From Ectocarpus siliculosus (Eukaryota; Sar; Phaeophyceae; Ectocarpales; Ectocarpaceae): a stretch of DNA of 43,721 nt. The notes under the pieces are model-generated. The model did no database searches, was not told the origin of the DNA, and saw only the letters and a program-made list of their open reading frames with translations. Each line of letters begins with the position of its first letter. Position 1 is the first letter of the stretch. Shown in pieces: positions 4,675 to 43,533 of this stretch. The stretch is from positions 3,243,968 through 3,287,688 of the forward strand of contig FN649758.1 in assembly GCA_000310025.1 (NCBI GenBank), given 5' to 3'. A program made the translations under genes and the position numbers.

Positions 4675-4696
4675 TCTTTTCCCCAGAAGCCACGAG

Positions 4697-10067: not shown

Positions 10068-11924
10068 TTATTGTGTTCGGGACATCTCTGCGTGCACGAC
10101 CTCCTGACGGTACATGATTGGGTACTCGTCGGACTCTAAGAAGCACGTGTTAGATTCAACAGCAGTTCCCGACGCCATCAAGATTCGTTCGGGAGTAAGA
10201 GTGACATTCCACCAAGATCTCGAAGGTGGGCGGCGGGGTAGCGTAAGACGAGTTGATGGAGCGTACCTCGTTGCTACGCAGCTCTCGTCCGGGATGACCA
10301 AGCACCTGTTTCCCTTGTTGTATCCCGGTCTGCATTTGGTAATGAAACAACCGGCGAGACGAAGAGCCAGATACTAATTTCACGAATGACTTCGGGGAAT
10401 CTACAGCATACACACGAGGTTGGTTGACTAAAACGGCCACGGGGACCGGAAGCACGCGGGAGGTATGCTGCTGTCCGAACCTCAAGCATGGAGTTCAGCG
10501 TTTCAAGGAGCGTTGTTCGTAACGCGTTCGTGAATGGACCGAGGGGAAGTGCTCATCAAGACGTGCGAAATAACGTTGGTTCTGGGGGGGAGGAGAGGGC
10601 AAGCAAGCGCCACATACGCTTCTTTCCATGCCTACACTATGGTTGTGTCGCTAGGGGACCAAATTGATCAGCGGTCAACCAATCAGAGCAGTCCGCTCGC
10701 CCATTTGGCATGGTTCTCGAGCCTACCATTAGAAGCCCTTTGCACGATCAACCAATGCCATACCTGTCAATGACTTCGCAGACAGCAACGATGGCAGGTG
10801 CTTGCGGCGCGTTGACGGCGGGTGGGTCCACCGTGTTCCTGTTCCCGCTGACACCACGAAATGCAACGCCTTGCGTCGAAAGGCTTCCAACAAAGGAAGT
10901 GGCAGAAGGAGCAATACCGGTAGGATTGACAGCCGTAATAGAACCACGGGCACTGGCAGTCTGTGTTGGTCTGTTGACGGCGGGTGGGTCCACCCTATTC
11001 CCGTGCCCACCGGCACCACGAAATGCAAAGCCCTGAGTCGAAAGGCTTCCAACAAAGGCAGTGGCAGCAGGAGCAACACCGGTAGAATTGACAGCCGTAT
11101 TTGAACCACGGGCACTGGCAGTCTGTGTCGGTCTGTTGACGGCGGGTGGGTCCACCCTGTTCCCGTGCCCGCCACCACCACGAAATTCGGCGCCTTGCGT
11201 CGAAAGGCTTCCAACTAAGGCAGTGGTGGGAACACTTGTAGCATTGGAAACCGTACTGGAACCACTGACATTTGCTGCTTGAGTCGGTCTGTTGACGGCG
11301 GCTTGGTTCATCCAGGCCGTGGTAGCAGGAGGAGCACCACTGGGGGCAATGGTAGCTGTGTTGGAGACACTGGCACTGGCGGTTGGTCTGTTGACCCTGG
11401 AGTGGTTCACCTCGTTCCCGTGCCCGCCGCCACGGAGAAGTGCAACGCCTTGCGTCGAAAGGCTTCCACCAAAGGCAGTGGCAGCAGGAGCAACACCGGC
11501 AGCATTGACAGCCGTATTGGTACCACTGGCACTGGCTGCCTGGGTCGGTCTGTTGGCGGCGGATTGGTCCATCCAGTTTCCGTACCTGCTACGACCGCGA
11601 AATGCAATGGCTTGCGTCGGAAGGCTTCCAACAGAGGCCGTGGCAGCAGGAGCAACACTCGTACCATTGACAGCCGTACTGGAACTACTACCGGCACTTG
11701 CTGCCTGGGTCGGTCTGTTGACGGCAGCTTGGTTCATCCGGTTTCCGTACCCGCCGCTACCGCAGAATGCAACGCCTTGCGTCGAAAGGCTTCCACCAAA
11801 GGCAGTGGCAGCAGGAGTAGTACTGGTAGCATGAGCAGCTGTACTGGAACCACCGGCACCAGTATCATCACGAGCGCAAGCATGAAGACGAGCAGCGGCA
11901 GCAGCGGCAGCAGCGGCAGCAGCG

Positions 11925-11955
<31 letters not shown>

Positions 11956-14900
11956 TAGCAGCAGCGGTAGGAGTAAATGCGGGGTCTGCACGGCCAGCAG
12001 AAGTTGCGGCGGCAGCAGCAGCCACGACCGCTGGCGTCGGCACGATCGCCGCCGACGCTGGAAAGGGAGTCGCCCTCAGCCCGGTCGCCCTCTGCTCGAC
12101 CGCGCTCAGCCAGTTTCTCATCGCAGCTCGAGCCGAAGTGATATCCCTCGTGTACGAAAGCGACACAGAAAGGGTTCCACCCATGTAGATGCCGTGGCCG
12201 CCAGTTGCCCCGTTCGACATGTACTCCGAGCCTGTCGTTGACGATGGGGTAGAAACGTGGGAAATCGTGCGTCCGGGGGGCACGTCCTCTCGGCACGTAT
12301 GAGGGGATGTCTTCTGCCCGCAGGTCCAAAATCATGATTCATGAATGCACGTAGCGCTTGCGAAATTCTAATGCTGATACAAAGTAGCGAATACACGATC
12401 AACGCAGCGGGTGATATGCATGCGCAACCGGGTGAGGGTGAGGGTGGCGGCAATAGCGTTCGTGCTCACGCTAATGGAGTAGTCAAGCAGAAACAAGGAG
12501 AGTGAAATTCTTGCCTGAGGACAACGGGAAATAAATAGGTGTAACATACCATGAACAAAAAGGTAGGTGAAACAAAGAGGCACACCCTATATAGCTGTTG
12601 CAGAAGGGTTTCCAACCGTGCTCAAAACAGTGCTTCGTACGAGCTGATTGGCACTGTAGAGGCGTGGAGGCAGCAACGAAAGAGGCGGAGCCCGTAGACA
12701 GAAAAAAAAAACTCAAGCCTCTTACCAAAACGTGCCTAGATAGGCCCTGTCCATCTCGCACAGCTGCACTCTCTGTAAAAAGGGCTTACGTTACGAAACT
12801 CCCGCGCCATGCACGACGATGCCACGTTTATTGATCCGTTGCGTGAGAAACCTCACACGACAAATGTTACCATTTCCCGATGTCTTCGAGACCATGTTCT
12901 CTGGGGAACTTCATGGACGGGGTTTCGACACCACCAACGTAAAGTTGGAGTGGTGGTGATGCCGTTGTTGCTGTGACCTCTTTGGTTCGTGCTATCTACC
13001 ATCGTTCTTATTGCGGTTACAGTTGTCAGGGATCGTTTTTCACGGGTCTACCCGAACAAGTTCTGTAGGCCAATGCCAGGATATCCGTAGCTCAGCATCG
13101 AAAAACGCATGCAGTCTCAATGCCGTACTCCTTCACGACAGAGAACATCGCTGCTCCAAGGAATAGGAGAAACGGATAACACCCTCGCATATCGGACCAG
13201 GATTAACCGCAATCGATAACATACGTCCGTGATCACAGTCTTCTGCAACACTGTGGCCGATGCAACACGTACCGGACATGTTCTTGATGCCCAAGCGAAG
13301 GATTCCGTGCCAGTTGCCCGGAGCGCTGCCGTGGAAGGCGAAAAATGATCCCGTTCCGTTCGACGAAGCCGCGGCCTCCCGCTTCATCGCCTGAAAACGC
13401 TCCTCTCGCTCTGAGGTGTCTTCAAAATTGTTTCACCGCAAACAGAACAAACCCGAAATGGCCGAAAACACACATGAAACACGCAGAAAAACAAGTTGAG
13501 AGCAGAAACACTATTAGAGCGTATCAATGCATAACAAGTCTCATGTCAGCCTCGTGTTGCTCAGTGTTCATTTTATGGGGTAACAGATGACAGGAAAATC
13601 AGAGTTCAATCACAGAAAAACGGGCAAAAAATTGTGAAGAAGTGTTCTATCCTTTCGGAATTCGATTGGCCAACGAACCAGCTAAACAAATCAGGCACAC
13701 AACACCAATTTTCCCGAACAAACCATTTCCTGATCAGCGAGAGACAGAAGGAGTCGGTCTTCGCGAGGGTGATCACAACAAACCGTGGGTGGAATTTCTC
13801 CCTACTGCGACTCGCTTTGGGATGGATCGTGAGGAAAGGTCTGGGAAAACGTCCAGAAAACGTGAAGGGCAGACAGATAGGTGGAGGCAGGGGAGATATT
13901 CTGGAAGACCTGGGTGGAAAGCTACAAGCAGAAATGTATGGAGAGTAGCACCACGTGCTGGACATGCGGTACACCGAACCTCTTGTGGTACTCAGCGAGG
14001 GGGTTCAATCTACAGTGCACAGCAAGAAAGCGTGGAGTTCCTATGCATAGGGGGGTTGAGCTGTGCACCTGTGAGCACGAACTGATTCTTGCATGAAATC
14101 CCCTCGATAGCTTCAGCTTCCTTCAACAGGTGCAGCTGCCCTCCATGAGCCCTGCGAAAAGGAAAAAGGCAACGTGCAAAGTGTTGAGGAGAGCAAAATA
14201 CTTCCATAACCACACGGGAAGCCCATGCACTCAAGCGAGAACAGATCATAGTGTAATTTTGCTGAAGAGACTGCAGCGCAGAACCAGAACTAAAAAAAAC
14301 TTACGAAAAACGGTAAAAAAAATGCGGCAGCGACGAAACCAGACACGGCGATTTGACAACCCTTTCGTTGCAAAAAACACCGCCGCAAGCACGCAAGGTC
14401 GCCCCTTTCCTCTAGAAACAACACCTCCAACTTCAATCACTCACGTCGACAGCAGCCACTCCAGCAGGGGGTACGACAGCGGGTTGATTTTCGACAACGC
14501 CTCCTTCAGGGGCGAAACCTCTCCGGTAGGGGATCTCCTTTCCCCCGCGTTGCTGCCCTCGCCACCTCCTTTGTCAATAACGACACCAGCGACAGCCTCC
14601 GTAGCTCCAGAACGAGCCCCATCATCACCACCATCAGCAGTAGCAGTAGCCGCAGAGGCAAAGGCAGCAGCCACTGGTTTGATCTTCGACAAAGCCTCGT
14701 TCAGCGGTGAAACCTCTCCGGTAGGGGGTTCCCTGGCCCCAGCGTCGCCGCCCTCGCCATCCCCCTCGCCATCACTGACACCAGCAACAGCCTCCGTAAC
14801 TCCAAACCGAGCCCCGACACCAGCAGCAGTAGCAGCAGCACCATCACCAGTAGTAGCAGCAGCAGCACCACCACCACCACCACAGGCATCAGCACCAGAG

Positions 14901-17900
14901 ACAGCGGCAGCAGAGCCCCCAACTCCACCACCACCACCACCACCACCACCCACTTGCGAACCAAGGGGTGACGGCGAAGAGAGACCTCCGACGCTGGCTT
15001 TTGGTTTCGCCTCGTTGCCAAGGCTTCCCTCCCCCCTGATGCACCGTTGCATGTCTGCCACAGACGGCAGTGCGTTCAGCACCAGGCGCACCTGGGTGTT
15101 TTGTGCATTTTCAGGCAGGTGTGATGACGATGGTTGTTTTGAAAATGGTGCGTGTTCTTTCCATCGCCGCGAGGAAGGTGCACGCAGAGGGGGAGGGATA
15201 GGAGTATTGTGCCATCGTGTTGAAGCTATTCAAACAAAACAAAAACGGGGACGAATGACGTCGTCTGTCGCCTCTGCAAGACTCCAAACACGCTGCTGTT
15301 GTCCGTGGACGTACGAAATGTATTGGTGTTCTGTGATCCATCGGTCAATCGTTGCGGGCCCTGGTTAGATCCTTCGACAGGTCTAAACTCACACGCATGA
15401 TCACCTACACCACTCGTGTGGGCCATCGAAACGTAGTGTCAGTGCTGACGAGTCAAGCTAGATACCCCCACGTGCTAACACCCTCACTCCGACGTTTCGG
15501 CATGCTCGAAAAATATCGACTGAATTATTTGGAGGTGCGTTTTCGAAGGCTTCTTTCATCGATCCAGTGTGAGTGACGAAATATTCCTCGAAACGTAAAT
15601 GCATACTGCCTCGTTTGGAGGACTTCTCCGCGGATGGATGATAAGTGAGATCCTCACTTTTTCGATGACACTCTCGTCCCTCTTGCGACCGGTCCCCTGA
15701 AGTCCAAACACCTACGCATGTACACATGACACGCGGCGGCGGGGCCATGTTGACGATCTCCATGACACGACACACGAACAACTACGGGGTTCAAAATTTG
15801 TTCAGGGTTGATGTTATCGACCACAGCACAACTCATGAACCACGAACCAGTCCCAAACTCCGGTCGTGGCAAACGACGGCACTCGTGTGAACCTGTCGCT
15901 GACTTTGATTGTCGACCTACTCCCTTCTGGAGTTTAGTTCTGCGAAATCTCCCCAAATGCCAATCAAAAATATTTCAAAAATATTTTGTTCCGCACCCAT
16001 GAGAATCCTGGCGTTCACCCCTTGCAAGACGAATCAACAATTTCCTTGCCACGTACAGTAGCTTGTACCTTCATGGCGCGGGTACGCCACGGTGACTGCC
16101 ATGCCTCTCTTCGCTGACCGCTTTGGCTGGTACCAGAAAATATCAGGCTTCCCACCGCTGGTTCTCTTGCTGCTAGAGCACAAGTCGGACACACGAACAT
16201 CAACACCGACAACACAGCGACGGCAACAAGAACCACCACAATACCAAAACAGCTCATATCAATCCTCACCGCGTCTGGAAAGCCTAGCTCGGGCCGTGTG
16301 CCCTCCAAGGCTCTACGGAAGAGGTCGATCAACAGTTCCACCACCTCTCCGTTGTTGAACACCTGTTAGTGCTCGGAAAGCGTGTGTGCCGCCGTCATTG
16401 TTGTTGGTGGTGGTGCTGTGTCATCAGTCTTCACTTTAGTCTTCGTCTCCTTACAGAAACACGGAAAATTGTCCTGGCCTATGCGCACAACGACAGTAGA
16501 CTTCCATCCAACCAGTGAGGCAGAACTGCCTTCCGTCACAAAAAGCGCAAAACAGGCCGAACATTTTCTTCATAGGAAACCCTTCACTGTGTACAGAGGT
16601 GTCCATCCAATGTTTTCACTCACCTGTCCTTCTACACCTCCCGCAGGACCAGGAAGGACGATGTCCGACTGCGTCTCGAAACGCGGTTGCTGTTTAGAGA
16701 ACTTGGAACGCAGGGACGCGCCACTGTATGAATGTGAGGGCAGCATCCAAGGCGAGAACTGCATCGAAACCACGAAAGCGATAGCAAGGAGTCAACGGGA
16801 CGGGATGGAAATGACATTACCAAGAGCACGCTCGAGTACCATCGCGGGTGTATTGCAGCAACACGCTGCACATGCCGGGGGTATCTTCGCCTCCACTTTG
16901 CTTCTCACCCCAGCGCATCTCGCCTTCAACCCCGAACGAGCAAAAACAAGAAAAACATTCCAGGGTTTCTGCAGTGCGGAAATTCCGTAGAACTCGGGAA
17001 CGCGGTGTCAACACCGAACCAAACGTGCGGATTGGTAGGAGCGACACTCCAAGAGGTCCCTCGACATATGCGGCGATCAAATCTGGATGACTCGGGACCA
17101 CTTCTAGACTAACAGACGATCGAAAGGACGGGTATTGGGCAGATAGCCGCGCGCACACCAGCAAGCGTTGATACCTTCTTCCCCACGCGCTGCCTCTCCG
17201 GGGGCATCGTGGGCAAGCGGGCAAACTCGAACTTCCAGCGCTTCCCGCGCTCCAAAACGCTCGAGGTCGATGTGCACAAGGGCTGCGTTAATAGTTGTTG
17301 GACGAAGGGCAGGGGAAGCGAGAGAGACACAGACAGGCAGGCAGACACACGGACAGACAGACAGACAGACGGGAAACTGGATGAGGAAAGCAGACCACCC
17401 CAGTTGTGTGCGCGTAGGGTTCAAGAGAACCTGGGCCTGCTTGGCACACTTTCCCCAGATCCTGGATTGCGATTCGATGCACGTTTCTGACCCTCTATTC
17501 GATGATGAGTTTCGTGCCCAACACGTCGGCCCCACCTGGTGGCACACGGTCGGCATCGACACGGTGTGCCCCTGTATTTGGTCGCCGCAAACTAGGCAGA
17601 TCTCGGTAACGTTCTTCAGCCTTTCGATCACGGTCAGCGCCACACGAACCTTGGCATCGAGCAGGCCGGGATGAGAGAGGGTGAATGGGCGCACAAAGCA
17701 ATACAGTGGCCTTCAAGGAACAGTAGCACGAACCTGGCGGTCCGGGCATGAACACATGCCTGCACGTTTCATTTCGTGCATGGTTGAGAAGAGCCCGCAA
17801 CACCCCCCCAAAGGGGGAGTCGGCGTCGAACTACTCGTTGCCGCCAACCGAAAAGCTGCAACGACAACGATGACGACAACAACAATAACAACAACTTACC

Positions 17901-20900
17901 AATGGGTTTGTTTCGGCGAGCTTCTTCAGCTCAGCCCTACGGTACTCGTCTAACAGACCGTGGCCATCACCGGTCTCCCCCTTCGACTGAGGCGGCGGGT
18001 CCAACAGAAGCCCTCCCAGTGCCACGCGCACCACGGAGTCATGTTGCAGCTGGATGGACCCGGGATGTTCCGCAACGGCGTCAAAACAACACGCCTATGA
18101 TGGGGGGACAGTTGGGGGTTACCGTTGGATAGAGCGAAACGGCGTTTCCGCAAGTGAGTTGTTTAGACCTGTCATGCCTTCGGTTGGTTGTTCACTCCCC
18201 CCTGAGAAGGGGAGCGCAACTAACTGGACCGCGATTCAAATGCCATTGCGGCCCGAACATATCCGTTGCCATTCAAACACTTGCCGTGCCGACCCCGAAT
18301 ACACCAGAGCACTTCGTACGGTTCGTCACACAGCACCGGCGAGATAAACCCTTAGCGCAATTACTGCCAAAGCAAGCTCCACGAATCCTACGAATCCTAC
18401 GGGCGGACACCTGAAAATATCGGAAAGCAAGCGTGATTTTGACGCTGGCATTCGGCGAGCCTTTTCTTGTGTCCTGTCCTCATGACCTCGCAAACCCTAT
18501 CGTCACACTTGATTGGCATCGTGGTCAACTGTGCACTGTTGGCACCGACTAAACCGCGTTTCTCCAAAGGCTTGTTCGGGATCAAATGCAGGTCAACAAG
18601 TGAGAAGTTCCAATCCGTCGCGGAAGTACTTCCATGTACGTCGTGTCAATGTTTTCGTTGAACGCATTCACAACCGAGACTCGCCTCGTCAACCTGTGGA
18701 AACCTCCTCTTCAGCTCAGTGAACTCCGCGAATGCTGCCTTCAGGGACGATCGCTGTTCCTCCTCGAGAAGGCAAAGCTGTGCCTTTTGCTCGTCGTACT
18801 GAAACAGGGGTGCGTATCGGGGGTGGGAGACCTCAGTAAGTCTTTGTTGCAAGGGGAAATTACCGCGCTCAATTAAAACCTTGTAGGAACAAATTTGTCC
18901 ACATCCTGGGTAGCAGTTAGGCGTCATGAGCTATGTAACGCAACCTCGTCCATACACCACTGATACTCCCATCATCTCGTAGCACTACCCCGAAGCACCC
19001 TTCTCAAGGTACCTTAGAGATCCGCAGAACGTAGGCAGCAAAACCGGCCGACACCACCATGGCCTCGCAAATCATCTTAACCGCCCGACGTGTTGCTGCG
19101 CTGTCAAGCTCCCCCCCGTCCGTCTTCTTCTTCGCCTTCCCCTTCCCCTCTCCGGCCGCCGTCGCCGCCGCTACCCTACCCTCTCGAACGGGAGATCCGC
19201 CGTCGCGGCAGACATCGCCGTCCATCCCTTGCTCGGATTGATGTCCTCCCTTGACGTGTTCGTCGGCCGTGCGTGATGGCCCCATGCCTTGGGACCAAGC
19301 TCGCGTCAACTCGGCCTGTATCTTTCCGCAGAGCATCCACTCGTGCGGGAATGTCTCCCCGATGCTGTCGGTGGGTCGTCGGTGTCAAAGATTGGGTTTG
19401 TGGTGGTTGTTGTGGTCATCGCCGTCGTTGCAGATGGTTGTTGGATGATACATACACGACCCGTTCCAGAATACATAGTACATCGAGAATTCAACTGTCC
19501 CCATTCATTGTCTTCGTTGGACTTGGTGTCGAAGTAACTCCAGTTTACTGGGCGAGCCCCGGGATTCAGGGTCCTGGAGTGTTTCTTTATACCCCATGTA
19601 AAGGGGAATGCATTCGGACTCGAGGGCGGGTGGGCTTCTGTATTTGCAGTCGTAGACGAAAAACGAACTCTGTGACTCATCTGGTACGGCCACGCACAAG
19701 GGTTCACACAAGGCCGACACCCCCGGCAGAGCTCACTTGCGGATATACAGATAGGCTGACTTCGAGCGTAGTTCGGGTTGTTTGAGACACAATTTTACAC
19801 CACAAACACCAACAGAAAGGTCAACTACCAGTCCTAATATAAGCCGTTTAGATGGTGTAGCCCCCACCTTCCGTAGGTGTCCATTTTCGGCTTGTTCATC
19901 GCCGCCCGTGCCACCTGCCTTGCCCACAATACTTTCGGGCACTTGCTTGATGACGTGTAGCCATAGTCGGTGGTGAGCATCACCTGCATGGTCGAGACGC
20001 GAACGGAGTGAACGATGTCTTCAGCTGGCACATCGGAATATGATGTCCTGCTTCTCCCTTGACGATTCTACGATAGCACATGTGAGGCCAAGCCACTACC
20101 CCGCGATGGCCCCTGTACCAAAATGAAACTGGCCGTTCCGGAGGCGAAAATTAGTTCAGCGTGGTCTTCGTAACTGAGACCAGAAACCGACGCCCTGTCC
20201 CTCGAAAAACGCAGCACTGGAGAAACAGATGCGGTGTGAAAGGGGTACGAATCATCGCTCGTATTGTCCTTACCACCACTCCTTTGCTGGGATCCAGGCC
20301 GACGGTCTCGACAGAAGTGCCAAGAGCACGGCCCTCGGAAAGCCTCCGAGGATCGATATATACCCAGAGATTTGTCAGGACCGAGGATAACTGGACCCTC
20401 GCGGTAATGCCGTCCACGCCGTCGATAAACTCGTCCGCATCAGCGTGCGCGTGATGCTGCGCGAAAGCATGCGGGGCGGTGCAGGCGCAGCATGGGTTCG
20501 AGGGGGTAGCGCGGTTTGGGTATCATACCGTTGTCGAGAAGCAACTTCGCAGCAGCGCAGAGGTGAAAAGAACGCCCTTGCGGCGTAGGGGGAGGATTTC
20601 ATGAAAGCTATACGACGTCAGATTGGGATGTGCATCTGGATGCACCCATCAACAGCGTTGTTGGGGCGTTCGATATTTGGTAGTAGATATTGAAAGGTTT
20701 GCCGACATGCTCCCCTTTCCCAACGTGATATCCCGCGTACCTCCTGCTTGCATGCCAGAGATCAACTATTTGGTAGCGTTGACACTTGACAGCTCCAGGG
20801 CTGGATACAACACAATCCGACCCTCTTCCTGCCTCCTTTGTACACATTTGTGCGAGGTACGGAGAGCTCTGGGAAAAGAGCTCTAGACTGCGTGGGTATT

Positions 20901-21256
20901 GATGGGGTCCGGAAGAGGACCGCTTCTGAGCCGTCACAACCGCCACACCACCAGCAGCAGTACGCCACCCTGACGTGGTTCCGACGAGCAGATGCAAGCG
21001 CTCAACCATTAGACTACAGCAGTAGCGCCAGAACAGAAGGGTCTGAGAAAACACGCGAACAAATCTTACAGCCCACAAAAGTAATCACCTTCGGCCATTC
21101 TCCACATTCGCATTCCGAATCCGAATCAGAGTTGTAGTCATACTCTAAATCGTTTCCCTGGTCGTCCGAACCGTCGTCGCCGACATCGTCAGAACGCGGG
21201 CTTCCCTCTTTGGCAGCCACCGGCGAGGCACCCGCTGGTTTGCGTTTCTTTCGCAT
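10068..21256 (-). CDS. PARP6/8-type ADP-ribosyltransferase, copy 1 (15-exon model)
   Basis: Exons (minus): 21256-21089, 20456-20274, 19983-19868, 19364-19013, 18879-18685, 18094-17900, 17649-17536, 17282-17175, 16362-16270, 15091-14445, 14151-14069, 13410-13273, 12231-10764, 10329-10267, 10218-10068. They sum to 4074 nt, one open frame of 1357 codons, and the phase matches at every junction. Exon 1 is acidic. Exons 2-3 resemble a UBC/RWD-like fold (LWVYIDPRRL...GLDPSKG). Exon 4 ends in a UBA-like helix (AAYVLRISK). Exons 7-8 join a Cys cluster (CLVCGD...PTVCHQ-PLC). The catalytic part has REERFQ and FAFHGS...NWHGILRLG (exon 12), GGHGIYMGG and AVCEVIDR (exon 13), and VIPDESCVATR (exon 14). This order is that of PARP6/8 mono-ARTs, which transfer ADP-ribose from NAD+ to proteins; substrate unknown. 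Intron 5 needs a GC donor. Starts of exons 5 and 15 are the weakest calls. Confidence 0.82.
10780..11870 (-). repeat. Intragenic tandem repeats, about seven units of about 54 codons, in exon 13 of PARP copy 1
   Basis: Between the GIYM strand and the AVCEVIDR strand the protein repeats a unit that starts VNRPTQxASA, has TAVN...VAPAATAF in the middle, and ends GGSLSTQGVAFRG..GHGN. I count about six units near full length plus one shortened to about 33 residues. The unit length is about 162 bases, so the frame is preserved. The equivalent exon in copies 2 and 3 has a single STQG-containing unit. Repeat divergence suggests this is not a very recent expansion. Confidence 0.9.
11880..11965 (-). repeat. 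GCA/GCT microsatellite encoding poly-Ala in exon 13 of PARP copy 1
   Basis: The run of gca, gcg and gct-type triplets encodes about 17 or more consecutive Ala on the minus strand, directly before the 54-codon repeat array. Confidence 0.9.
14500..14985 (-). repeat. Low-complexity Gly/Ala/Glu expansion in exon 10 of PARP copy 1
   Basis: The region holds triplet tracts (CCA/CAC on the plus strand near 14868-14950) and a duplicated GEVSPLxEALSKIxP unit on the minus strand. The matching exon of copy 3 is 167 bases, against 647 here, a difference of exactly 480 (160 codons). The expansion is thus in-frame, and both flanks (LNALPSV and WLLST) align to copy 3. Confidence 0.88.
17325..17372. repeat. 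Short (ACAG)n-type microsatellite in a PARP copy 1 intron
   Basis: A run of acagacagacagacag and related cagg/caga units lies in the intron between exons 7 and 8. Confidence 0.85.
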
Positions 21257-22208: not shown

Positions 22209-22378
22209 AGTACTGGGCCCTGTTTAGTGCCGGTTGAATGGTGCCAGGTGCCCGGTTTAGTGCCGGTAAGGTCTCTGGACACAGGCACTATTGAGGGCAT
22301 GCCCGATTTAGTGCCGGTTCGGCGCCGCTGTCACCCCCAATAGTGCCGGTTATCCCGCGCGAACACACACACACACAC

Positions 22379-22416
22379 GGTTAGCGCGGTCGATGCCAAT
22401 AATAAAAACACACACC
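22379..22416. repeat. Internal direct repeat of the TIR element, first copy
   Basis: The stretch starting ggttagcgcggtcgatgcc and ending in aataaaaacacacacc recurs with few changes at 23495-23534 in the same orientation. The two copies bracket the central 1.1 kb of the element. Confidence 0.85.
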
Positions 22417-23439: not shown

Positions 23440-23494
23440 AAGTGTTTTTGTGTTTTCAACCGCACTAAGACTGACGTCTTTTCATTGGACAGCC

Positions 23495-23534
23495 GGTTTG
23501 CGCGGTCGATGCTAAGAATAAAAACACACACACC
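23495..23534. repeat. Internal direct repeat of the TIR element, second copy
   Basis: This copy reads ggtttgcgcggtcgatgc, then aataaaaacacacacacc. Together with 22379-22416 it could be a trace of an insertion or segmental duplication inside the element. Confidence 0.85.
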
Positions 23535-25017: not shown

Positions 25018-25440
25018 CACAAATCATATGCCGAACAAGGGTGGTTTCCACAGATGATGCAAAGGCGAAGAATGCTCGCGCCCATGCGTTCCACCGAGTG
25101 TCGTTTGGACGGTATACACATCCCTACCACATTACCGCCAATCTCTACGGCTGGATTACTACGCAGTGCAGGCTATTGGTAGCCCTGTGGTCCACCACCG
25201 CCGACATCGTCGATGGTGCGGGACGAAAATCGGTACCAACGCCGGTCCTCAGAGCCGGCATCACTACAATAGTGCCATTCGTTGACGATGACGCTATAGG
25301 GCCTGGTGAATGCTGGCGTGCCGTGCTGCCGCTTCGGCCGCCAAGTCACCATTGGCCAAGCGGAAACTTGACGTGTGGCCGATCAGCAGGAACCTTGTTG
25401 TCGTGCAAGCACGGGGTCGTAGGCAAGCAAAACACGGGGG
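25018..25440. repeat. 3' flank of PARP copy 2, duplicate of 9618-10060
   Basis: This is the second copy of the flanking duplication described at 9618-10060, in the same orientation and at the same place relative to the last PARP exons. Confidence 0.85.
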
Positions 25441-25539
25441 TGTTATCCGACGTCATGTGTACTTGTCTACTAACGTCGCGTGTGCTGGTCTGGTACCTTG
25501 CGATTGAAGAAATCTTAATGAACTCGTCTGTGCACGACT

Positions 25540-26560: not shown

Positions 26561-26675
26561 CGAGAACTTTTTCAAAGCTTCATGCACATGTGCTACATGT
26601 AGCCTGTGGCTTGTGCCGTTCACTTGAATCAGCCGCCTGGAACCACCACTGCACCATTTCGCACGACTTGCCCAG

Positions 26676-29600: not shown

Positions 29601-32600
29601 GCCTTAACATATTGGTGGAACAACCTGCTTCGCGCACAAGTGGTTACCTAGCGTGAATCGCCGTTCGGTTGGAGTTAGCTAGAAGTTCGGCTTTTTCAGA
29701 TAACCATTTTCCGCGCTTTTCATGCTGAGAGAAATGCTTGTCCTATATTGCTTGGAGAGCCACTCTTGAAAACGTGATCAGTCCTAGAGGGTCCTGGGGG
29801 TGCAATGTGATTTTCGCTGGCGCGATGTTAAAGGGAGCGGACAGCACAGGCGTTGTTGTTACTATCACTTGTAACGTGGGCGTCGAGGAGAACTTTTTCT
29901 GCGCGATGGCAGGGTACGGGGGAAAACAAACTTCGTACATTGCACCTTGATATGCTCTCTCTAGCGGCCATATCCAACTACGGATGCGCGTTAGGCTCAT
30001 TCCCGTCATACCCGACACATCCCTTGCTCGTGTTTGGTGTCGTTCTCGCCTTCCACCACTTCTTCGCCCGTCTCTTCACGTAAATTTCAAAAGAATCTCC
30101 ATACGCAGTCGGGCGTTGAGAAACAGGTGAGTGTAAATTGGGTGTCGTGGTACACTGCGGAGATATTTGGCACACGTCGATGATGGTATTCAATGTCCGT
30201 TGGGTTGGAGTACAGTAGTGTAGAAGAGCACACCAACAACAACAACAGCAACGTGATTTCTGGTTCTTACCTAAATCAAAGGTGCAAAGCAACAAACAGG
30301 GCGTGGAACTGCTGATCAAACTGTTCCGTAAGGCCTTAGAGGGCGCGCGGCCCGAGCTAGGCTTCCCGAAGAAGGTGAATCACGTCCGAGGTGTGGTGGT
30401 GGTCTTGGTTATTGCTGTCGTCGTCATTGTTGTTTTGGTGGTGCTTCCGGTGGCCAATAGTGATTGATCTCTGTACCGTTTTCCACATGCAGGAGGCTGT
30501 GATGACGTTTATCCAGGGCACATCACTGAACAATCATGGTCAGTGAACTTCATGGTTAGGGTTCGATAGAAGTGTGATAAGGCAAGCAGTTCGGGGTGTC
30601 GCGTCCCACCCCTCCAGCGACAATCGTTCTCGCATACCATGCATTGTTGGTATGGATTCGTTCCATCTATTCTGGTGCCTGTCTCCAGATGATTGACAAA
30701 TCAGCAGGTCACAGAAGGTGTAAACGGACCTCCGTTTGCCAACTTACTCGAACGACAACAGAGGTTCACAAAATGTCATCGAAGTGTTTCCGCATCGACA
30801 TTGATATAGTAAGGTTGTCGACATCATGATCTGGACAGGGAGTAATTCATACCTCGGAAGGCGACTCTCACCGCCGTTCTCTCTTCTGCTGAAACAATGA
30901 GCTCGATCCCGGATTGAAACCTCGGTGGCATTCGTGCTGTTTAATATCGAAGGTCTTCAAATTGCGGGAGGATGGTCGCGGGCGGAGCAACCAGGACGTC
31001 GATAATGCGAGGGAGCCTCCAACGTGCTTTTCACTCGATCAACATCAGCCGTAGATTAGATGACGTCCTTGTTGAGGTGCCGTTGTGTGTCGCTACGTAC
31101 CACCGTACCGCATAGTTAGTTCAACCTCGCGTTTTCCAGGTGGTGGTTGTTGGTTCTCCTTCTCACTGTCTGCCGCATTAACAAGCGCGTACAGTGCGTG
31201 TGAATTTCGTACTCATCCCCGCCTCCACCACACGAAATAAAAAGAGTTTGTAGTTCTCTAAATAGCCGTGCGCGGTCGGTCGTGCGCCCACCAATTGTGC
31301 TGCTGTGAAACGGTGGTATATTTCAGGGGTTATTGTGGCTGCTGCATAAAGGGCATGGCAACCGGATCGGGTGCCCAAGCTGTCAGTATCAAAGAGAAAC
31401 CTGCTGTGGGGGGGGGAAGCTAAAGTCAGTCCGTTTCCGAAACTCCATTGTCCCTCCTCCGCACGCACGCCAACCCGCAACAACCGCTTGGTCTAAAAAC
31501 GACCATCACACCTGAATGCATGGCACACACGATGGTAAAACGCTGTAGGCACTCCAGGTGCTCAACGCTTTATCGCCTGTGGCGATCATGGACCAGTGCA
31601 GGAGGGGTGAGGGGAGCCTTCGCACACGCCTGAGTAACACCCACCGAGGGACCTCAACGCTGAGAGGCGCGTTGTCATATATCAGCCCGCTGGCGTACCC
31701 GCGATTGGAGTGGATACTATCGACGTGAGTGGCAGCCACTCGAACGTGGTGGCTGGAGGAAAAACTCAGCGTCTGCCTGATAACGGCGGTGATGACTGTT
31801 TTGGGGTTGCTGGTGTTTCCTATAGCCACCCTATGTAGCAACGTGGCTCTCTTGATGATTACTACCGCGTTGCTGCTACCAAGAGACATACCACGTGCCG
31901 AGATAACGGCGGCGCAAAGATGGTGGTTTCTTTGGTTCCATCCGTCTAGCCCCTGATCGCTCTCACGTGAATATATTGTTGCTTTCAGGGGAGAGCTGAG
32001 ACTGTTGATGAAACAAGAAGCTATCCAGCAAATTCCATGCGAGAAGCAGTTTCTACTAACAGGTACGCGCTGCACCCCGTAGCGACAGCTACAAGTCTCC
32101 TGTCGTGTATCAAGCGTTTTTGCTGGCGCTGCTGTTCATAGTTCGGACCAGTGACGTTTCATCCGGAGGGTTTCCGATAGCTTCTCAAACCACTTCTCGA
32201 AGATTTCTCCATTGGTCACGAGGCTCAACACTCTACGGCGATGGTGCGGTTTCGGAGCACCTGTGGCACCTGCGGTGAGAAAGGCGACACTTCAACATTC
32301 TGCGCGATCACGTTTGCCTCACAGCACGCGCGCCTTCATGCGAGCGTGATGACTTCTGCCGGAGCTTTCCCTGGCGGCTGTGTACAGAATGTTGAGGAGA
32401 CGCTGGGAGCTCCGGAAACACGCGGTGCCCAAGAAGTGCAATGCTTTGTACGTGCAGCTACACGCTTTGTGGAACCTCCGGTTGGGTAAAAGTGGCAATA
32501 AGTGTTGGCTATCTTGATTTCTTGCTGTGCTGTGCTTTTTTCTACAGATAATCCAGCGCGGGAGGAAAGGTTTCAGAATAATAAAAGGAGGTCCGGACCA

Positions 32601-34277
32601 TTTTTTGCATTTCACGGTAGCGTTGCGGATAACTTGCACGGAATACTTAACCAGGGCATCATGAGCATGTCCGGTAAGTGCTCTACTGCTTCGATGAGCT
32701 TGAGCGTAAACATATGGTTTCGGTCGCGTGGATTGTTCCTCAGACGATCGCTTGGTGCATGTCACAACCTACCTGTTGCTTCCTTGACGCTTTGGCGTTC
32801 TCCAGTCGTCGCAAGGGCAAGACGTTAGCGTGGTTCTGTCGCGTGAACCAAACCGTTTTGGGACCACAAGGTCGCCTACCACGATGACTAGTTGAAAAAC
32901 TGTAGATCTCTACTGTAGTTGCCGTTTCCTTCAGCCTGGATAACATGTTCGGCATGAACTTTCGTAGGAAACTTAATAACTCTATTGTCAGCACTGACTG
33001 GTCAATCTATTGGTTTGATTTCGACTTTAATAGACAGCAAAATCACCGAAAGTGACAGCTACGACAACCAACCATCAACAGCCATCAACACAAACATTTG
33101 TGCTTCATGTCGAAACCACTGTCTGTGTCGGAACTCCTCTACACATACTCCTAAACCTCAAAAGTTCCTTGTCATCCTTTGTTTGTTCGTGAGGTTTGTC
33201 CAAAAAGGTGGGCGTTTCTACAGGGCAATAGCAATGCCAAGAAGGGCCGGGTGCGATATTTAGTTTAGGACAGCCACCCGTGTTTTCCGATTCCTCCTTT
33301 CATTGGTGTTCGCGCTCGGGCCGTGCCCGCTCTCGTGATTTCTCATTCTCTAACCAAACCTGTGCTAGTTTCTATACTCTCACCTCCTTGAGGACAATGC
33401 CTCCCATGCCCATCCCTCTTCTTCCTGTCAATTGCAGGCTCGAAGTACATGTCAAATGGGGGCTGTCGGTGGCGATGGCATCTACATGGCTGAGAACCCT
33501 TTCCAAGCGCTTACGTACGCGCGCCCAGGTACGAGGGGAAATGGGGTACAGCTGCTGCGAGTGCTTCCAGCGTTGCGAAGGCCGCGAACGCTGCTAAATA
33601 GTATGGCCGCAGATGCCAACAATTCTTCCTCTCCTGGTTCTACCTTCCCTTCCGCTGATCCTGCGGCTGTCGGCGCCAAAGGTGGAAGTTTTTCGACGCA
33701 AGGCTGTGCTGCCGGTGGCGGCGTTGGGAACGGGACAAATTTTTCCACGATAGTTGCTGTCTGCGAAGTAATCAACAGGTACCCGGCCTTCTCATTGGGC
33801 TTGGCAGCCGACACAGTTGGCTAGCCGGGTTGATTGGCGATTGGCCGGCTGGGAGCATGAGGACACGACAGATTGAATAGCATGGGGTGGGACGCTTCGA
33901 TTCGACCCCCTTCTCCGTGATAATCATCGTCAGCGCAACCCAGTTCAGCTCCCAAGAAAGAACCTAGCGTGCCGATGGCCCATGTTGCAATCGCTCGCTC
34001 AATTCAATAACTCTCCGACTGCTGAGCACGGTGAACGCGAAGGCGTACGGCCATGTAAGCAAGCAGTACCAGACTCGCCCGAAAACCACCCCCCTGCACC
34101 GCAATGCCAACCAGCCTCCTGCTTGTTTTCGGCACTCCTGACTCCTCGTCCTGAAGTGCTGTTGCACTTGAAATTGTGCTTATGTCCTCTTTCCTTCCCC
34201 GCAAAACGTAGACCGGGACACCAGCATAACAGCAAGGCGCATTACGTCATATCGGACGAGAGTTGCGTGGCCATCAG
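26676..34277 (+). pseudogene. PARP6/8-type gene copy 3, 5'-truncated and frameshifted
   Basis: Located exons, numbered as in copy 1: E2 26676-26858, E4 27054-27402, E6 28262-28450, E7 28661-28764, E9 30282-30374, E10 31558-31724, E11 31989-32062, E12 32548-32673, E13 33438-33778, E14 34212-34277. E8 may be near 28945 (PFC after a good acceptor). E12 keeps FFAFHGS and E13 keeps GGDGIYMAENP and AVCEVINR. Lesions: E1 absent at the junction with copy 2; E3 not found, although E4 still has the phase that requires it; E5 not found; E6 with two frameshifts; E7 shorter by 10 nt (frameshift in the Cys cluster); E13 with one extra base in a G5 run near 33459. E9-E12 and E14 are in phase and E2 and E9 have exactly the same lengths as in copy 1. 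The E13 base could be a sequencing slip; the others argue for a real pseudogene. Confidence 0.82.
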
Positions 34278-36183
34278 GTGCGTTCTCTGCCCTGTATATT
34301 TTCTACCCCTCTGCCTGCATTCAGGGTTGTCGTGAAAGGCTACAGTACTCACTTTGAACAGCGCTGTTGAAAAGATCGGGTGAAGAAGCGCACGAACGAA
34401 ACGTTTCCAGCGTCAAACTAGTGCCCGGTCGAAACGGGTAGTTTTCGAGGCCGTACAAAGAGACGACGTCCACAAGATCCTTCAATAGCCGGTCTCCTGG
34501 CAAGCATATGCACGATCTTGACGCTTGCGTCTCAGGTGAGATGTGCGATGTCTCCCGTGATTGTTTTTTTGCCGCCCCCTTACTTTGGTCACCGTGTTTG
34601 CACAACGTTCAAGGTTCCTGCTGATCAACGTCACAAAGCCGAAAACGCAGCGCTACTTTGCCGGAGATGGCGGAGGCTTCGACCTGGCGGCCGCAGCAGC
34701 AAGGCAGCACTCTACCATCAAGTACGGATTGAAATAAACCGCACGAGGTATACTGGTATAAGTTTGGTGCGCCAGTGGCTTCGATGGAGACCACAGGGAC
34801 AGCACAAACTCGAAAAACCTTGGTCACCCTAAGGGTGAAAAGCGTGGCAGAGAAAAACGTTAGAGGGTAGAACGGGTATGTCGTTCACGAGCCGGAAGAC
34901 ATATGGAAGTCTGTTGGATACGTTCGGGTGCTTCTTGATCGAAGTAATGCTGATGCCCCCCCCCTTGAAGGTCAAATTCAGGACCGGGCCATTGGCCTTC
35001 GAGAACGTAGACGAAGATTTAGGAAGGAACACTGTAGATGATCAAGACGACAAGTTCAAACGTGATTGTGGCTCCGAGTGCAAAGACCGCGGTCATGTAC
35101 AGTAGTTGCGGAATATCGGTTGTACAAGAAGGAGAGGCAAGTGTACATGACTGAGCTGGGAAAAGTAGAAGGAAGGTGCAGGGAGATGTATGACGAGTGG
35201 GATAGCCAAGAGAGTAGCTGTACTGGGGCATAGGAAGTGGGTTGAAAAGGCGGGAAGGGATATCGAAAGGATAGATAGACTAGGGAAGACCTTTTTGAGC
35301 CACCTGTGGCAAAGTAGGAGTAGGAAGGAACGATTGGCCATCGGTTATCGGTCCTGTGGCAACAATGCTCCGTCCTCTCGAGGACGCGTGGTCCATGGTC
35401 TAACCGCTAAGGCATGCAAAACATAAGAGTACGCCCCCCCGCCTGCAGCTTCGCTGCCAGAAATTGCTCCGGGGGAGGGGTTCGTAGCACGAAGTGGGCT
35501 AACCAGGAGCGGGGGGCTAACACACTACTGGGACGACTTTGGCAGCACCATGAGCACAAAGAACAGTCTACATGAAGAACATCGGGACTACTCCCTCTCT
35601 CCCGACAGATGTGCACTCTCAACCCGTGAGACCAACCAATATCCGATCGCCACCGAACGCACAAATTCGGCAACACCAGCACACCCTGCCTACCACCCAG
35701 ACCTGTCCACGTCATCTCCTATACTACCCGTGCATGACGTCCACCACTTCTACCTCCTACGACGCCTTACAAACTCATTCGCTACGCATCGCCAACAACA
35801 ACGAAAATTTTGGGATTGCAGCTATGTAACACATCACGCCCACCCCGCATATCTTGGAAGTACATGTAGTGTACAGAGTGCTTCAGCGAACCTGTTGATT
35901 ACTTCATGCTGGATGATTTCGTAGGTTTGTTGGACTCGCGTCACTTACTGTGTGGTCGTCCGAAACAGCGCAACAACCCCCACCAATAATAACGTTCATT
36001 GTAGCGACGATAGTTCAAGCGAAAAGATGACGACGACCCCGTCATCTCGCTGTTGATGTTCCATATTCAAACTTGTCGTTAACCAGGGGCCTTCGACTTT
36101 ACTGCTTGTGGCTTGGCTACAGATTTCTATTTGGTGTAACCCTAACCTGCCCGAAGGCCATGCAAATTTTATTTTCGAATGAC
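34278..36183. other. No supported gene; one charged coding-like fragment
   Basis: A last exon for PARP copy 3 may exist after the acceptor at 34321-34324, but it does not match copy 1. At about 35099-35420 two adjoining plus-strand frames encode charged, helix-prone peptides (AEYRLYKKERQVYMTELGK, then RKWVEKAGRDIERIDRLGK), which look like remains of a gene. I do not recognise it. Nothing else is supported. Confidence 0.35.
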
Positions 36184-36860: not shown

Positions 36861-36879
36861 GTCTTTTGGTAGGGCGGTT

Positions 36880-39545: not shown

Positions 39546-42500
39546 ATGTCCGACGATGAGCCCTACAACGACGACATGCCAGACGACGACATGGACCAGC
39601 AGGAGGAGGAGGCTTCGGACTACGACTCCGAGTACGCCTGGGAGGAGGGACAGTCCGATGGCGAGGTCGAGAGCTCGACGAAGGGAATGGTACGCCTGCG
39701 TGCGGAATTTTCTGCGCTTGTTTCCTTCGTTTGTCGTCCAGCGGGTTCTATGCCGCTCTTCTAAACGTGCACTTGTCGGGACATTTTTGATGGTGGGCGG
39801 TAGGGGGCGTTCTCCTTTCAAAGCAGTCTGGCGGATAACATTATTCCGTTATGTATTGGAACAAGAATAGCTTGCGGTGCCAACCCCCGGATCCCGCCGG
39901 CTCGTGGAGCAAGCATCATTGTAGTGACCCTGTTCTACCCTTGTGCACCACTATCTGCAGGACAGCATGTCATCTCGCACATCATTGCCGCCCCGCCCTT
40001 TCCCTAGTGCGGCTTGTGGGAAGTCTGCGTGGTCGGCAATAGTAGACGGTTGCCCGTCCCGGCTCAATTTGGAAAGCCAAGACGGATGGAATGGGTGACT
40101 ATCCTATACGGTTGTCCAGTCAAGCATGCATATTGTTCATATTTCCGGTGGTGCAGCGGTTTTCTCTGCGGGAATGCTGCAACGTTGCGAACGCAAAGAT
40201 TAAACTATTCGCCGAGGCACAACCTCAAGGAGCACACGGCGTCCCACAGCCGAGCGAAGCACTCAGTCTACCCCGTCCCCCGACGACCCGCCCACCCACC
40301 CCCGGGCGAAAAACACGCCTGCCAGGACCTCGCCAAGGCAGACGCCGACGCCCTGAACGTGGACGTGGAAGGCATGTTCGCCAAGGTGGAGGCCCACACG
40401 TCCACCCTCATCCGCCTCTGGGTGTGCGTGGAGCACTCGAGGCTGTTCGAGGGCCTCGCCACGAGCGCCGTGGAGGCCCTAGGACTGGACCCCGCCAAGG
40501 ACGTGATGGTGCGAGCGTGTGCTGCGCTCGTGTGTCTTCTCTAATGTCGTATGCATAGAACTCCCGATGCTGCTGCGCTCCACTTGTTTTGTCTGTCGAG
40601 TCTAATGGCGTAGAGCTTCCTATGATGCTGCTGTTGCCTTGTTTTGTCGATTATTTCGTCGTCCGTTGAGTGATCAGCGCCGCTGTTGCCCGCGTAAAAG
40701 CAGGGGGTGTCGCGCGATTGTGTCTCCCGGGAATTTCTGTTTCTGCGTTTTTTGCTCTCTTCGTGTTGTCTGGGTAGGCCGACGATGCCAAAACAACGCA
40801 TCAAAGGCGCTTGTGTAGCGCGCACTTGACGAGAGAGCAGCGAGCGTCCGTTCAATCATGCACCTATTTTGACAAAAACAATTGAGAAAGACTTTTGCCT
40901 CAACCTACTACATCGTGCGGAAAACACACACGAAGGCGTTTTCCAAAGCCTTGGCAAACGTGGGAAAGGGTTGTTTGGCAGTCCACCAGGTCTCGAGCCC
41001 ATGCAATAGCGCCGCCGAACTCTTTCGTCGTGGTGCCTGCGCTTGGCGCCGTTTTTGCTGTTTGTGGACTTGATGTGATGGTGTTTGTGCAGGTTATGTT
41101 CACGACAGACCAAGATTACCCCGGGTGCGTGCGACCGAAGGTGCAGTGGGCGAGGCAGGTGGACCCCGTCAAGAGCAAAGCGGACGACCTTTGCCCTGAA
41201 GGGAGGTAAGCTAACTGCTATTAGGGGATGGTGATATGAGTTATCGAGGATCCCCTCCCCCCCCTCCCCCCCCCCCCCCGATGGTGTGGCAACTTTTAAA
41301 GCGAAAACAGCAATGCGCATAGCTGAGACTCAGATTCAAGATCGACGAGCAAACAATGAAACTGTGTCTACCCTTGTGTGACGGTGCCCATTCATCAATA
41401 TACGTCGTGTATCGGCCGCGCGTTGATACGGTGAAACGTAACCTATTATTGGGTTTTTCTTTCGGAGAAAGATCTGCGGAGTTCGTACGTATCCAGCCGA
41501 GTGGAGGAGATGAGAATTTTCGGTATGTGCTCTGGCAAAGAACAACAGTCGGCTGTGACTGTAGCTTCACCAGAAACTAACGGCACGCGCTCTATTTATT
41601 TGGTATCACATTTTTCCATCTCTACTACTGTCGCCGTCATCCTCATGTTTCACCGTCCGTCACAGAGTTGGTGCCCTCCGCTCGTGCTTGCCTCTCTAGA
41701 CGAAGACCTCCCATACGGGGCTGCTGTACCGAGGTCACAACCGCTCACATCACCACCACCACCACCACCACCAAACCCCACAGCAGTCACTTGACGGCAA
41801 CCAGAAACATTCAATCACTCGAAGAAACGGCCGCAATCCGCCCCCCGGGGTTTCCAAAGAAGCGTTTCGTATGCACCCCTCCCTCTACCCTCACGCCCAG
41901 TTTGGCACGGCTAAACGCACGGATGATGACCAGCTTCTGGTCGGTCCTTGCGAAACGTGGCCTGGGTCGGCGAAAACCCGGCACATCGCTCAGTCCCGGG
42001 ATGCGAGGTCAATGTTTGTAACGACTGCGGCATTCTACATGAGTATACCCCCCCCCTACCCTCACGCCCCCCCGTGTTTGCCATCGGGGTTGGGTTTTCG
42101 TAGCTTGGCAACGACGTTGTAAAACAAGCCCCCCCTCGGTGTTTGCCATCGCTATTGAGTTTTCGTCGCTTGGCAACGACATTGTAACACAAGCCATTTC
42201 ACTTCGTGAACTCGCATCCAGGTTACCGGGGTTTTTTTGCCCCGTTTTTTTTTGTTGCCCCGGTAACCATAATTGTGGTCGGGCAGATCATGTTGTGCGG
42301 GGTCGAGAACCCTCACGCCGCGCAAGGGGGATGATCGCACCACGTTGTGTTAAAATGGTAAAGCATCCCCGAGGCAGTCACACAGTGCTTATAACTGTCT
42401 CTAGAAGTGAAAGCACCAGAAAATAAATGAAGTCATACGCAGCTGTCATCCGTACGCAAGGAAGTAAGCACAAGATGCCGGACACCCTTAGCAGGATGCA

Positions 42501-43533
42501 GCGCACCCTTCAGGTCCGGTGCGAACCCGGCGTGCTCCGTCCCGGCTTTGTAGGGATGCGAGGTCAATGGTCTAACGACTACGACATGCACGACTATGAG
42601 TACACCCCCCCCCCCCCCCCCCCCTACCCTCACTGCCCGCCGGCTGTGGAAAAACGAAACAGGATCGGCGAGATCTTCCCCCTCCAGGGAACCCTCTGCC
42701 AGAAACTGGACGAAGACCTGAAGGGCATGTGGCCCCGCGCGGCGGACAGGACCAGGGTTAGACGCGAAATTTCCGCCCAACTTAGGGGCGGAGGTGGCGG
42801 TGGCGGCGGCGGCGGCGGTGGGGGCAGCGGCAGCGGCGGCGGCGGCGGCGGCAACGGTAACGGATCCAGCGGTCGAGCCGGGGTCACCGAAGATGGTGGT
42901 GGTGGCTCAGCCGGCGGCGGAGGAGATGGTGCGGCGGCGGCGGCAGTGGCGGCAGCGGCAGTGGCGGCGGCGGGGGCAGCAGGGGCCGACGTGCACGGAG
43001 CAGCGCCGCCGTCGGTGGGAGGCGCAGTGTGGACCGGGGGGGGGGCGGCGGCTGAGCCTGACAGCGCGGCAGTCCAGTGGGCGATCGAATCGATCTGCGA
43101 GACCACCGGCGCGTCGAGAGAGCTTGTTGCCTACACTCTCATGGTCTCCAAGGTTTGTCGTCTGGAGAGGATTGCCGTCGTGTTGGCGTTGAGGTGGTGG
43201 TACATACGGTGTCGACTGGTGTTCGCGGTAGCTCATCGTGGATGGTAACCCACAGGATTGCTGCCAAAGCAATAGCGCAAGGAAATGGAGAACCTGTCAG
43301 ACAATGTTAACCAGGCATACGACTACATGTCATCACTGTCGATCAACACTTCTCCTCCGCTACCCTGCAATTCCCACCCACCTTCCTACGCACGACTTGG
43401 CAACCTCCCGTTGTTGCAGTACGACGAGCACCGGGCACACCTGACCCTTCTGGACGATGGGCTGCGATCCTCGCTGGAGGAAGCCTTCGGAAAAATTCAG
43501 CGTCTGAAGGACATGTACCCGTTCGCGGATGAG
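39546..43533 (+). CDS. PARP6/8-type gene copy 4, 5' part (continues past the window)
   Basis: Exons: 39546-39689, 40326-40508, 41093-41205, 42663-43152, 43315-43533. They total 1149 nt (383 codons), open and with the same phases as exons 1-5 of copy 1. Exon 1 starts MSDDEPYNDD and is very acidic. Exon 2 (DLAKADADAL...LIRLWVCVEHSRLFEG...GLDPAKD) is 183 bases, the same as in copies 1 and 3. Exon 3 has VMFTTDQDYPG and PKVQWARQ. Exon 4 has IGEIFPLQGTLCQKL, a long Gly/Ala tract, and AIESICETTGASRELVAYTL. Exon 5 has LPLLQYDEHRAHLTLLDDGL, RSSLEEAF. The catalytic exons would lie beyond 43721, so activity cannot be judged. No lesion is seen. The start ATG at 39546 is chosen by its fit with copy 1 exon 1. 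Confidence 0.82.
42045..42575 (-). repeat. SINE-like repeat, copy B, inverted relative to copy A
   Basis: The reverse complement matches 4697-5215 over most of its length. It lies in intron 3 of PARP copy 4. Near its head (at about 42515-42530 on the minus strand) is gggttcgcaccgg, a good fit to a Pol III B box (GGTTCGANNCC). Its tail unit of about 65 bases (gatggcaaacac... with cgttgccaagc) is present twice in tandem (about 42075-42130 and 42131-42195). Confidence 0.75.
42221..42268. repeat. Inverted repeat with T-rich loop inside SINE-like copy B
   Basis: ggttaccgggg at 42221-42231 pairs perfectly with ccccggtaacc at 42258-42268; the loop is rich in T. In copy A the corresponding site is A-rich, and its right arm (ggttaccg) is partly kept. 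Confidence 0.8.
42787..42990 (+). repeat. GGC/GCG simple-sequence expansion in exon 4 of PARP copy 4
   Basis: Long ggc/ggt and gcg/gca triplet runs encode poly-Gly followed by Ala-rich stretches. Exon 4 is 490 bases here against 352 in copy 1 and 349 in copy 3, all differing by multiples of three. Confidence 0.9.

Follow-up and report, generated by a model that had tools for sequence, protein, structure and literature searches.

A family of clade 6 ADP-ribosyltransferase genes and relics in the brown alga Ectocarpus siliculosus

A stretch of 43,721 nucleotides from Ectocarpus siliculosus (assembly GCA_000310025.1, contig FN649758.1, here C33; the window, C33:3243968-3287688) contains four homologous blocks of PARP6/8-type (clade 6) ADP-ribosyltransferase sequence, which very probably represent a cluster of such genes at different stages of birth and death. 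The blocks were found by translated self-comparison of the window followed by exon-by-exon reading of the frames (copy A on the minus strand at ~21.3–9.9 kb, copy D on the minus strand at ~26.5–25.3 kb, copy B on the plus strand at 26.68–34.74 kb, and copy C on the plus strand from 39.55 kb to the window end), and bear out an earlier note on this DNA which had counted four copies from the letters and open reading frames (ORFs). The homology is far beyond chance, with exons of copy A matching genomic paralogues outside the window down to an expect value (E) of 1.7e-24. The cluster is real, and its origin is older and wider than the local duplication which that note had proposed. As far as can be judged from their predicted exons, A is a gene and C most likely one too, and the window mixes two apparently old subfamilies.

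Copies in the genome and assignment to the PARP6/8 branch

Searches of the 189-Mb assembly (492 contigs) with A and with G agree on at least nine places with matching sequence, namely A, B, C with its continuation past an assembly gap, D, F, G, H, I and J (Table 1; the search with A gave 62 rows and that with G gave 38, and the count is a lower bound as the best candidates were scored). No lesion was seen in A, C, F, G and H, with whole frames read in A and F only, while B, D and I are relics. The mixture of intact and broken members from which the earlier note had argued for a turnover of copies is thus present, with A and F open over 15 exons beside the three relics. We also note three more genome matches to the Pfam PARP domain (PF00644), two on C12 and one on C15. 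In agreement with an Ectocarpus source, a type III polyketide synthase fragment of this assembly matches PDB chain 4b0n_A, the E. siliculosus enzyme, at 90/90 residues, while a search of the assembly for rubisco gave no match.

Table 1. Features of the ADP-ribosyltransferase copies (positions are those of the window unless a contig is given; aa, amino acids; b, bases)
Feature	Position	Strand	Basis or remark
Copy A, candidate complete PARP6/8-type gene, 15 coding exons, 1299 aa	9884..21256	-	AG/GT at 14/14 introns, single terminal stop, exon order and phases as F
A exon 1, acidic N-terminus, start codon uncertain	21089..21256	-	F without in-frame ATG here
A exon 2, 183 b	20274..20456	-	80% aa identity to F
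A exon 3	19868..19983	-	spliced model
A exon 4	19013..19364	-	spliced model
A exon 5	18694..18798	-	spliced model
A exon 6	17900..18049	-	spliced model
A exon 7, C4-motif Cys 1-3	17536..17649	-	motif and spliced model
A exon 8, C4-motif Cys 4	17175..17282	-	motif and spliced model
A exon 9, 93 b	16270..16362	-	exon reading and spliced model
A exon 11, low-complexity insert	14445..15091	-	exon reading and spliced model
A exon 12	14069..14151	-	spliced model
A exon 13, predicted catalytic His (FAFHGS)	13273..13419	-	96% aa identity to F; 2/96 first- and second-position differences
A exon 14, predicted catalytic Tyr (HGIYM) to AVCEVID, 467-residue loop with in-frame 162-165 b repeats	10764..12231	-	repeat and spliced model
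A exon 15 (CLVIPDESCVATR)	10267..10329	-	comparison of copies and spliced model
A exon 16, last coding exon with stop, missed in the earlier note	9884..9986	-	equivalents in B, D, F, H
Copy D, 3' relic: part of exon 14, then exons 15 and 16	25294..26521	-	self-comparison and exon reading
Segment across the D-B junction, 518 b	26530..27047		one further genome match, 92% identical
Copy B, pseudogene: exons 2, 4, 7, 9 and 11-16 recognisable; 7 and 14 frame-shifted	26676..34737	+	exon reading
Copy C, exons 1-5, into assembly gap just past the window	39546..43533	+	exon reading
Copy F	C75:199.4-208.9 kb		open over all 15 exons
Copy G	C75:160.7-175.3 kb		partial assembly of exons
Copy H	C18:234.5-242.1 kb	-	partial assembly of exons
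Relic I	C33:4074.7 kb		exon 2 only
J	C472:345.1 kb		one exon, more divergent PARP

Copy A is modelled as 3900 bases and 1299 residues with one stop, at the end, and its exons are named E1–E9 and E11–E16, with E10 reserved for an exon which was not found. The proposed splice model was derived solely by comparison between the copies, and splice signals stand at the expected phase in 28/28 places in A and likewise in F. When an additional exon between E9 and E11 was sought by comparing A with F, resemblance was seen in many frames and none was singled out; the E9–E11 junction is in phase without one. The earlier note had also arrived at 15 exons for this copy, not necessarily the same 15, and had misplaced the gene end at 10068, which is the stop of a frame reading through the donor site after VATR; the last exon lies 184 bases further on. 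A GT or GC donor follows the VATR position in A, B, C, D, F, G and H, and a terminal exon starting FLL is found in A, B, D, F and H. E16 contributes only 33 residues in A. Among the boundaries checked in the other copies, expected splice signals were found at 16/18 in C, 18/20 in G and 19/22 in H, where two are GC donors (these counts were taken from the best-fitting comparison rows).

Exon lengths are shared well beyond the window. The lengths listed in the earlier note were right (183 bases for exon 2 in A, B and C; 93 bases for exon 9 in A and B), but their equality is not the sign of local duplication that it was taken for: E2 has 183 bases in 6/6 copies with checked boundaries (A, B, C, F, G and H), of which F, G and H are on other contigs, and the 93-base length of E9 in A and B recurs in F and H, with G at 96 bases. 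Equal lengths therefore mark the family and not the place.

We filed the family under PARP6/8, as the earlier note had done, because of its PARP domain, its match to PARP16, a cysteine motif and the absence of the catalytic Glu. The profile check suggested in that note gave nothing in its simplest form, as a plain six-frame search with PF00644 returned four genome matches and none in the window, single exons being short; joined exons do match, with C, G and H scoring 35.9, 40.9 and 47.5 bits, all above the cut-off of 26.7 bits. A profile built from five copies matched 45 solved sequences with E up to 1, with PARP16 first (E = 9.9e-11) followed by PARP1 (1.6e-4) and no PARP6 or PARP8 chain among them. 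The His (FHGS) and Tyr (G(V/I)YM) of the triad are invariant in 5/5 aligned copies, and the third triad position, which we placed by eye using human sequences as a guide, is never Glu in the 7/7 copies with a readable E15. Clade 6 proteins are described as lacking the catalytic Glu, with members thought to be mono-transferases or inactive (PMC2964712).

The cysteine motif CX2CX14CX4C is spelled by E7–E8 in 4/4 copies in which both exons were read (A, F, G and H), where it should be noted that E8 of G and H was picked for a Cys at the third codon, with the acceptor side alone fixed; the corresponding region of C is inside the gap, and B has a frame shift in E7. Any CX2CX9-19CX4C motif occurred in 3/5000 shuffles of protein A, and this motif has been described for PARP6/8 homologues across all eukaryotic supergroups (PMC4245714). 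Human PARP6/8 also have a split RWD domain (PMC10450202). Profiles of E2–E4 and of the end of E4 gave no match to RWD or UBA, and nor did Pfam on the end of E4 plus E5 (A and C); the E9–E11 region was inside profile A1, whose best match is in the PARP domain, and no RWD-specific search was made. Pfam searches with the N-terminal part returned only sub-cut-off hits to unrelated families (Noda_Vmethyltr, 0.021, for A; Cep57_CLD_2, 0.046, and Cas9_REC, 0.11, for C), and NCBIfam gave no match for G.

Subfamilies, relics and unequal constraint

Aligned exon products of A and F, which are on different contigs, are 83% identical (484 columns); the values for the other pairs are 54% for A–B, 49% for A–C, 57% for C–G, 54% for C–H and 62% for G–H. 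C, G and H were grouped to the exclusion of the others in a six-copy tree with a support of 100, and in a second tree including D (up to 65 columns) and I (61 columns), I was placed with B (support 100) and the placement of D was not supported (32). D probably goes with A, given an identity of 65%, a common repeat unit, and downstream DNA which is 73% identical across 440 aligned columns. As C75 also carries one copy per subfamily, F and G, ~24 kb apart, the arrangement suggests that an old pair was copied to two places with local decay following, in an order of events which we infer. The DNA of A and F can be aligned over most of the gene, introns included (74–86% in the longer pieces, gaps counted), and because the introns align the copying was at the DNA level; new copies would have been made by duplication of intron-bearing DNA and not by retroposition, and part of them would then have decayed. 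Window positions 23329–23533 resemble stretches close to two further PARP loci, in L001 (5781–5910) and L007 (305–523), at 73–77%, and are read as a dispersed repeat.

Decay is most evident in B and D. E1, E3 and E8 of B were not found by comparison with the other copies, E5 has neither acceptor nor donor at the matching place, E6 matches in pieces only and in two frames, E7 is 104 bases long where A has 114, and the frame is not kept in E14. In D, E1–E13 were not found and the acceptor is absent at the place homologous to that of E14. The two relics lie head to head, meeting between 26.5 and 26.7 kb (near 26.6 kb), and were probably joined through an inversion or inverted duplication. A second copy of the segment across this junction is found at C33:4074599-4075111, ~0.8 Mb away on the same contig, and since the segment is present twice the junction is older than the copying which gave rise to this second occurrence; a stretch like window 4656–4706 lies just beyond this second copy. 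In the case of C, a run of N directly after the window end (L001:90-3052) falls inside the copy, which resumes ~3 kb further on, and this is why only its 5' part is visible, as had been noted earlier.

The copies also differ in the length of two regions. The stretch from GIYM to CEV is short in C, G and H (33–38 residues) and longer in D (98), F (115) and A (467). In A the extra length includes six matches of a ~54-residue unit, plus a partial one and a poly-alanine stretch; the loops of F and D have one repeat unit each. The units in A are 162 and 165 bases in the DNA and therefore keep the frame, and by this comparison in-frame repeats have extended the loop after the predicted catalytic Tyr of A to 467 residues, starting from ~35. 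We suggest that it may be a tolerated surface loop which lengthens by repeat slippage. The E11 product is variable in length as well (A, 215 residues; F, 115; G, 165; H, 184; B, ~55 from 167 bases).

Non-synonymous (dN) and synonymous (dS) divergence were compared for one paralogue pair, A and F, with ranges of dN/dS reflecting two settings of transition bias. The catalytic exons (E9 and E12–E16 without the loop, 200 codons) gave a dS of 0.33–0.37, a dN of 0.10 and a dN/dS of 0.27–0.32 (Fisher p printed as 0.000) vs 0.15–0.17, 0.15 and 0.89–1.03 for E1–E8 (428 codons), and there is strong purifying selection on the catalytic exons of this pair and almost none on the N-terminal half. E13, with its 2/96 first- and second-position differences, is conserved relative to an assumed neutral value of 0.18 (p = 1.3e-6), which was picked after the data had been seen from the cleaner introns of E7–E11 (17–19% differences). 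Global A–F intron alignments gave distances of 0.16–0.85, inflated where indels are many, and against pooled introns (27% differences) the conservation of E13 would stand out more strongly. A test for positive selection in the N-terminal half of A and F gave no significant result, as dN was not significantly greater than dS in any pool; five N-terminal exons without indels, picked post hoc, gave a dN/dS of 1.22–1.42 with bootstrap P(dN<=dS) values of 0.22 and 0.09 and Fisher values of 0.58 and 0.23. Synonymous divergence is about two-fold higher in the catalytic exons (43/147 sites vs 45/304 in E1–E8, p = 0.0006), which hints at a mosaic history for A and F, for example a more recent conversion of the 5' half.

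Weighing the explanations, and the neighbouring sequences

Several observations weigh against the reading of these copies as clade 6 genes in various stages of birth and death. Protein A scores 25.2 bits with PF00644 (E = 1.4e-5), which is below the cut-off, in a model without E8, E16 and most of the inserts. Its start codon is uncertain, as the corresponding position in F is without an in-frame ATG. The third triad position is Tyr in C, G, H and D, Cys in A, Leu in F and His in B, and the activity of A and F may therefore differ or be lost; E15 is also not conserved between these two, with 11/40 first- and second-position differences. The middle of C is inside the gap, and G and H were not joined to a whole frame, with four exons of G (E1, E5, E6 and E16) and two of H (E1 and E6) undetected at the score threshold applied. 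Finally, the dN/dS of ~1 in E1–E8 would also be given by weak constraint on a dying gene.

The intact-looking proteins could be pseudo-enzymes which have kept the fold and act as scaffolds without transfer activity, and the published view of clade 6 members as mono-transferases or inactive (PMC2964712), the Cys and Leu which we placed by eye in A and F, and the 467-residue loop inside the domain of A would all fit with this; however, both His and Tyr are kept in the five aligned copies and the exon with the His is the most conserved one between A and F, and we regard this explanation as unlikely. A rapidly diversifying defence family, in which pathogen pressure drives change in the N-terminal half and in the repeat loop while the catalytic core is kept and copies are turned over, would account for the contrast in dN/dS between the two halves and the higher values in the five N-terminal exons, for relics beside intact copies, and for loops of 98–467 residues in A, F and D vs 33–38 in C, G and H, and brown algae do have another family, of proposed immune receptors, which diversifies by exon shuffling (PMC11378527). 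Against this, dN is not significantly above dS in the one paralogue pair, and of the ten other window ORFs compared with Pfam, four matched and none belonged to a defence family (no PADLOC search was made). The link to stress or defence which the earlier note had raised as a possibility thus gained no positive evidence from this analysis. Such a family is decidedly unlikely in our view, and it is highly doubtful that the A/F subfamily is an arms-race mono-ADP-ribosyltransferase with a fast N-terminal half and loop, serving brown-algal immunity or genome conflict.

The presence of four copies in 33 kb with a common exon order and phases is what tandem duplication in place would produce, and it was on such grounds that the earlier note had derived all four from one another locally. 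Yet A is only 49% identical to C and 83% identical to F on C75, and C is 54–57% identical to H on C18 and G on C75, with which it forms the fully supported group; C75 in turn holds one copy per subfamily, suggesting that an old pair was copied. Tandem duplication of all four in the window is highly unlikely on this evidence. That some copies are alleles, haplotigs or the result of misassembly is hardly credible: there are assembly gaps, including the one inside C, and C75 is short (213 kb), but agreement between A and F at ~74–86% of aligned DNA positions is too low for alleles, and the D–B junction has been assembled twice with an 8% difference.

Birth and death of clade 6 genes is the reading we prefer, and under it the intact proteins would bind nicotinamide adenine dinucleotide (NAD+) in their C-terminal domain and modify intracellular proteins with single ADP-ribose units; no ADP-ribose chains are expected, since elongation requires the Glu which is replaced here. 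Choice of the target would fall to the C4 zinc finger together with the rapidly changing N-terminal half.

Other parts of the window were compared with Pfam, and the four matches among the ten ORFs were two copia-type domains, a NADAR fragment and a pseudouridine synthase. The NADAR domain (5638–6060, minus strand, E = 1.7e-22) raised the possibility of an ADP-ribose writer–eraser neighbourhood, which we rejected: there are at least 150 NADAR matches in the genome (the best 150 of 230 candidates) and the domain is found in one lineage of Ectocarpus Gypsy elements (PMC12477816), and for these reasons 5638–6060 is most likely a retroelement fragment. A zinc-knuckle-like frame (7291–7896, minus strand) was seen by eye near this fragment and had no Pfam match, and a stress-induced NADAR-type protein of Ectocarpus has been reported which is not a PARP (PMC7922944). 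The copia-type element (768–4204, plus strand) has an integrase (PF00665) and a reverse transcriptase (PF07727) in separate frames. An interspersed repeat is found at 42031–42640 in an intron of copy C and, inverted, at ~4690–5224 near the other end of the window, and has at least 77 genome matches (best 40 of 2388 candidates). The RNA pseudouridylate synthase domain (PF00849, 36187–36840, minus strand, E = 3.9e-14) lies between B and C.

Comparison with known systems

Clade 6 PARPs belong to the less well understood ADP-ribosyltransferases. With its two subfamilies, its intact copies beside decayed ones and the sharply unequal constraint on its two halves, the Ectocarpus family is an experiment of nature that can show what parts of a PARP6/8 protein matter. 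It also makes it testable whether the PARP6/8 branch serves conflict outside animals.

PARP16 is the best solved structure for the family profile, and the His–Tyr–Tyr pattern of C, G and H is also that of PARP16. It differs in being without an N-terminal zinc-finger extension and in having a C-terminal membrane helix (PMC10450202). The clade 6E PARPs of Trichomonas vaginalis are similar in that there are several clade 6 copies in one genome (seven proteins; PMC2964712), though they belong to another lineage and the likeness drawn here is one of copy number; beside these and the five copies without a lesion here, the statement in the earlier note that PARP6/8-like genes are usually few per genome holds only in a relative sense.

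PARP homologues have been reported for E. siliculosus, in passages which give no count, cluster or subfamily for this species (PMC4245714), whereas PARPs went undetected in the brown algae and diatoms covered by an earlier survey (PMC2964712). No paper on the cluster was found among the papers listed which join PARP or ADP-ribosylation with stramenopiles, brown algae, Ectocarpus or Phaeophyceae (subscription journals being mostly outside the coverage), and one further paper deals only with ARF-like proteins at the place found (PMC6742357).

PARP6 and PARP8 are the closest in organisation, sharing with the Ectocarpus family a CX2CX9-19CX4C motif before the ADP-ribosyltransferase domain, a PARP domain near the C-terminus, the absence of the Glu and the presence of low-complexity inserts. 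The Ectocarpus family differs from them in a loop after the Tyr of up to 467 residues and in the presence, within a single genome, of at least five copies in which no lesion was seen; the searches made with its N-terminal exons (E2–E5) matched neither RWD nor UBA.

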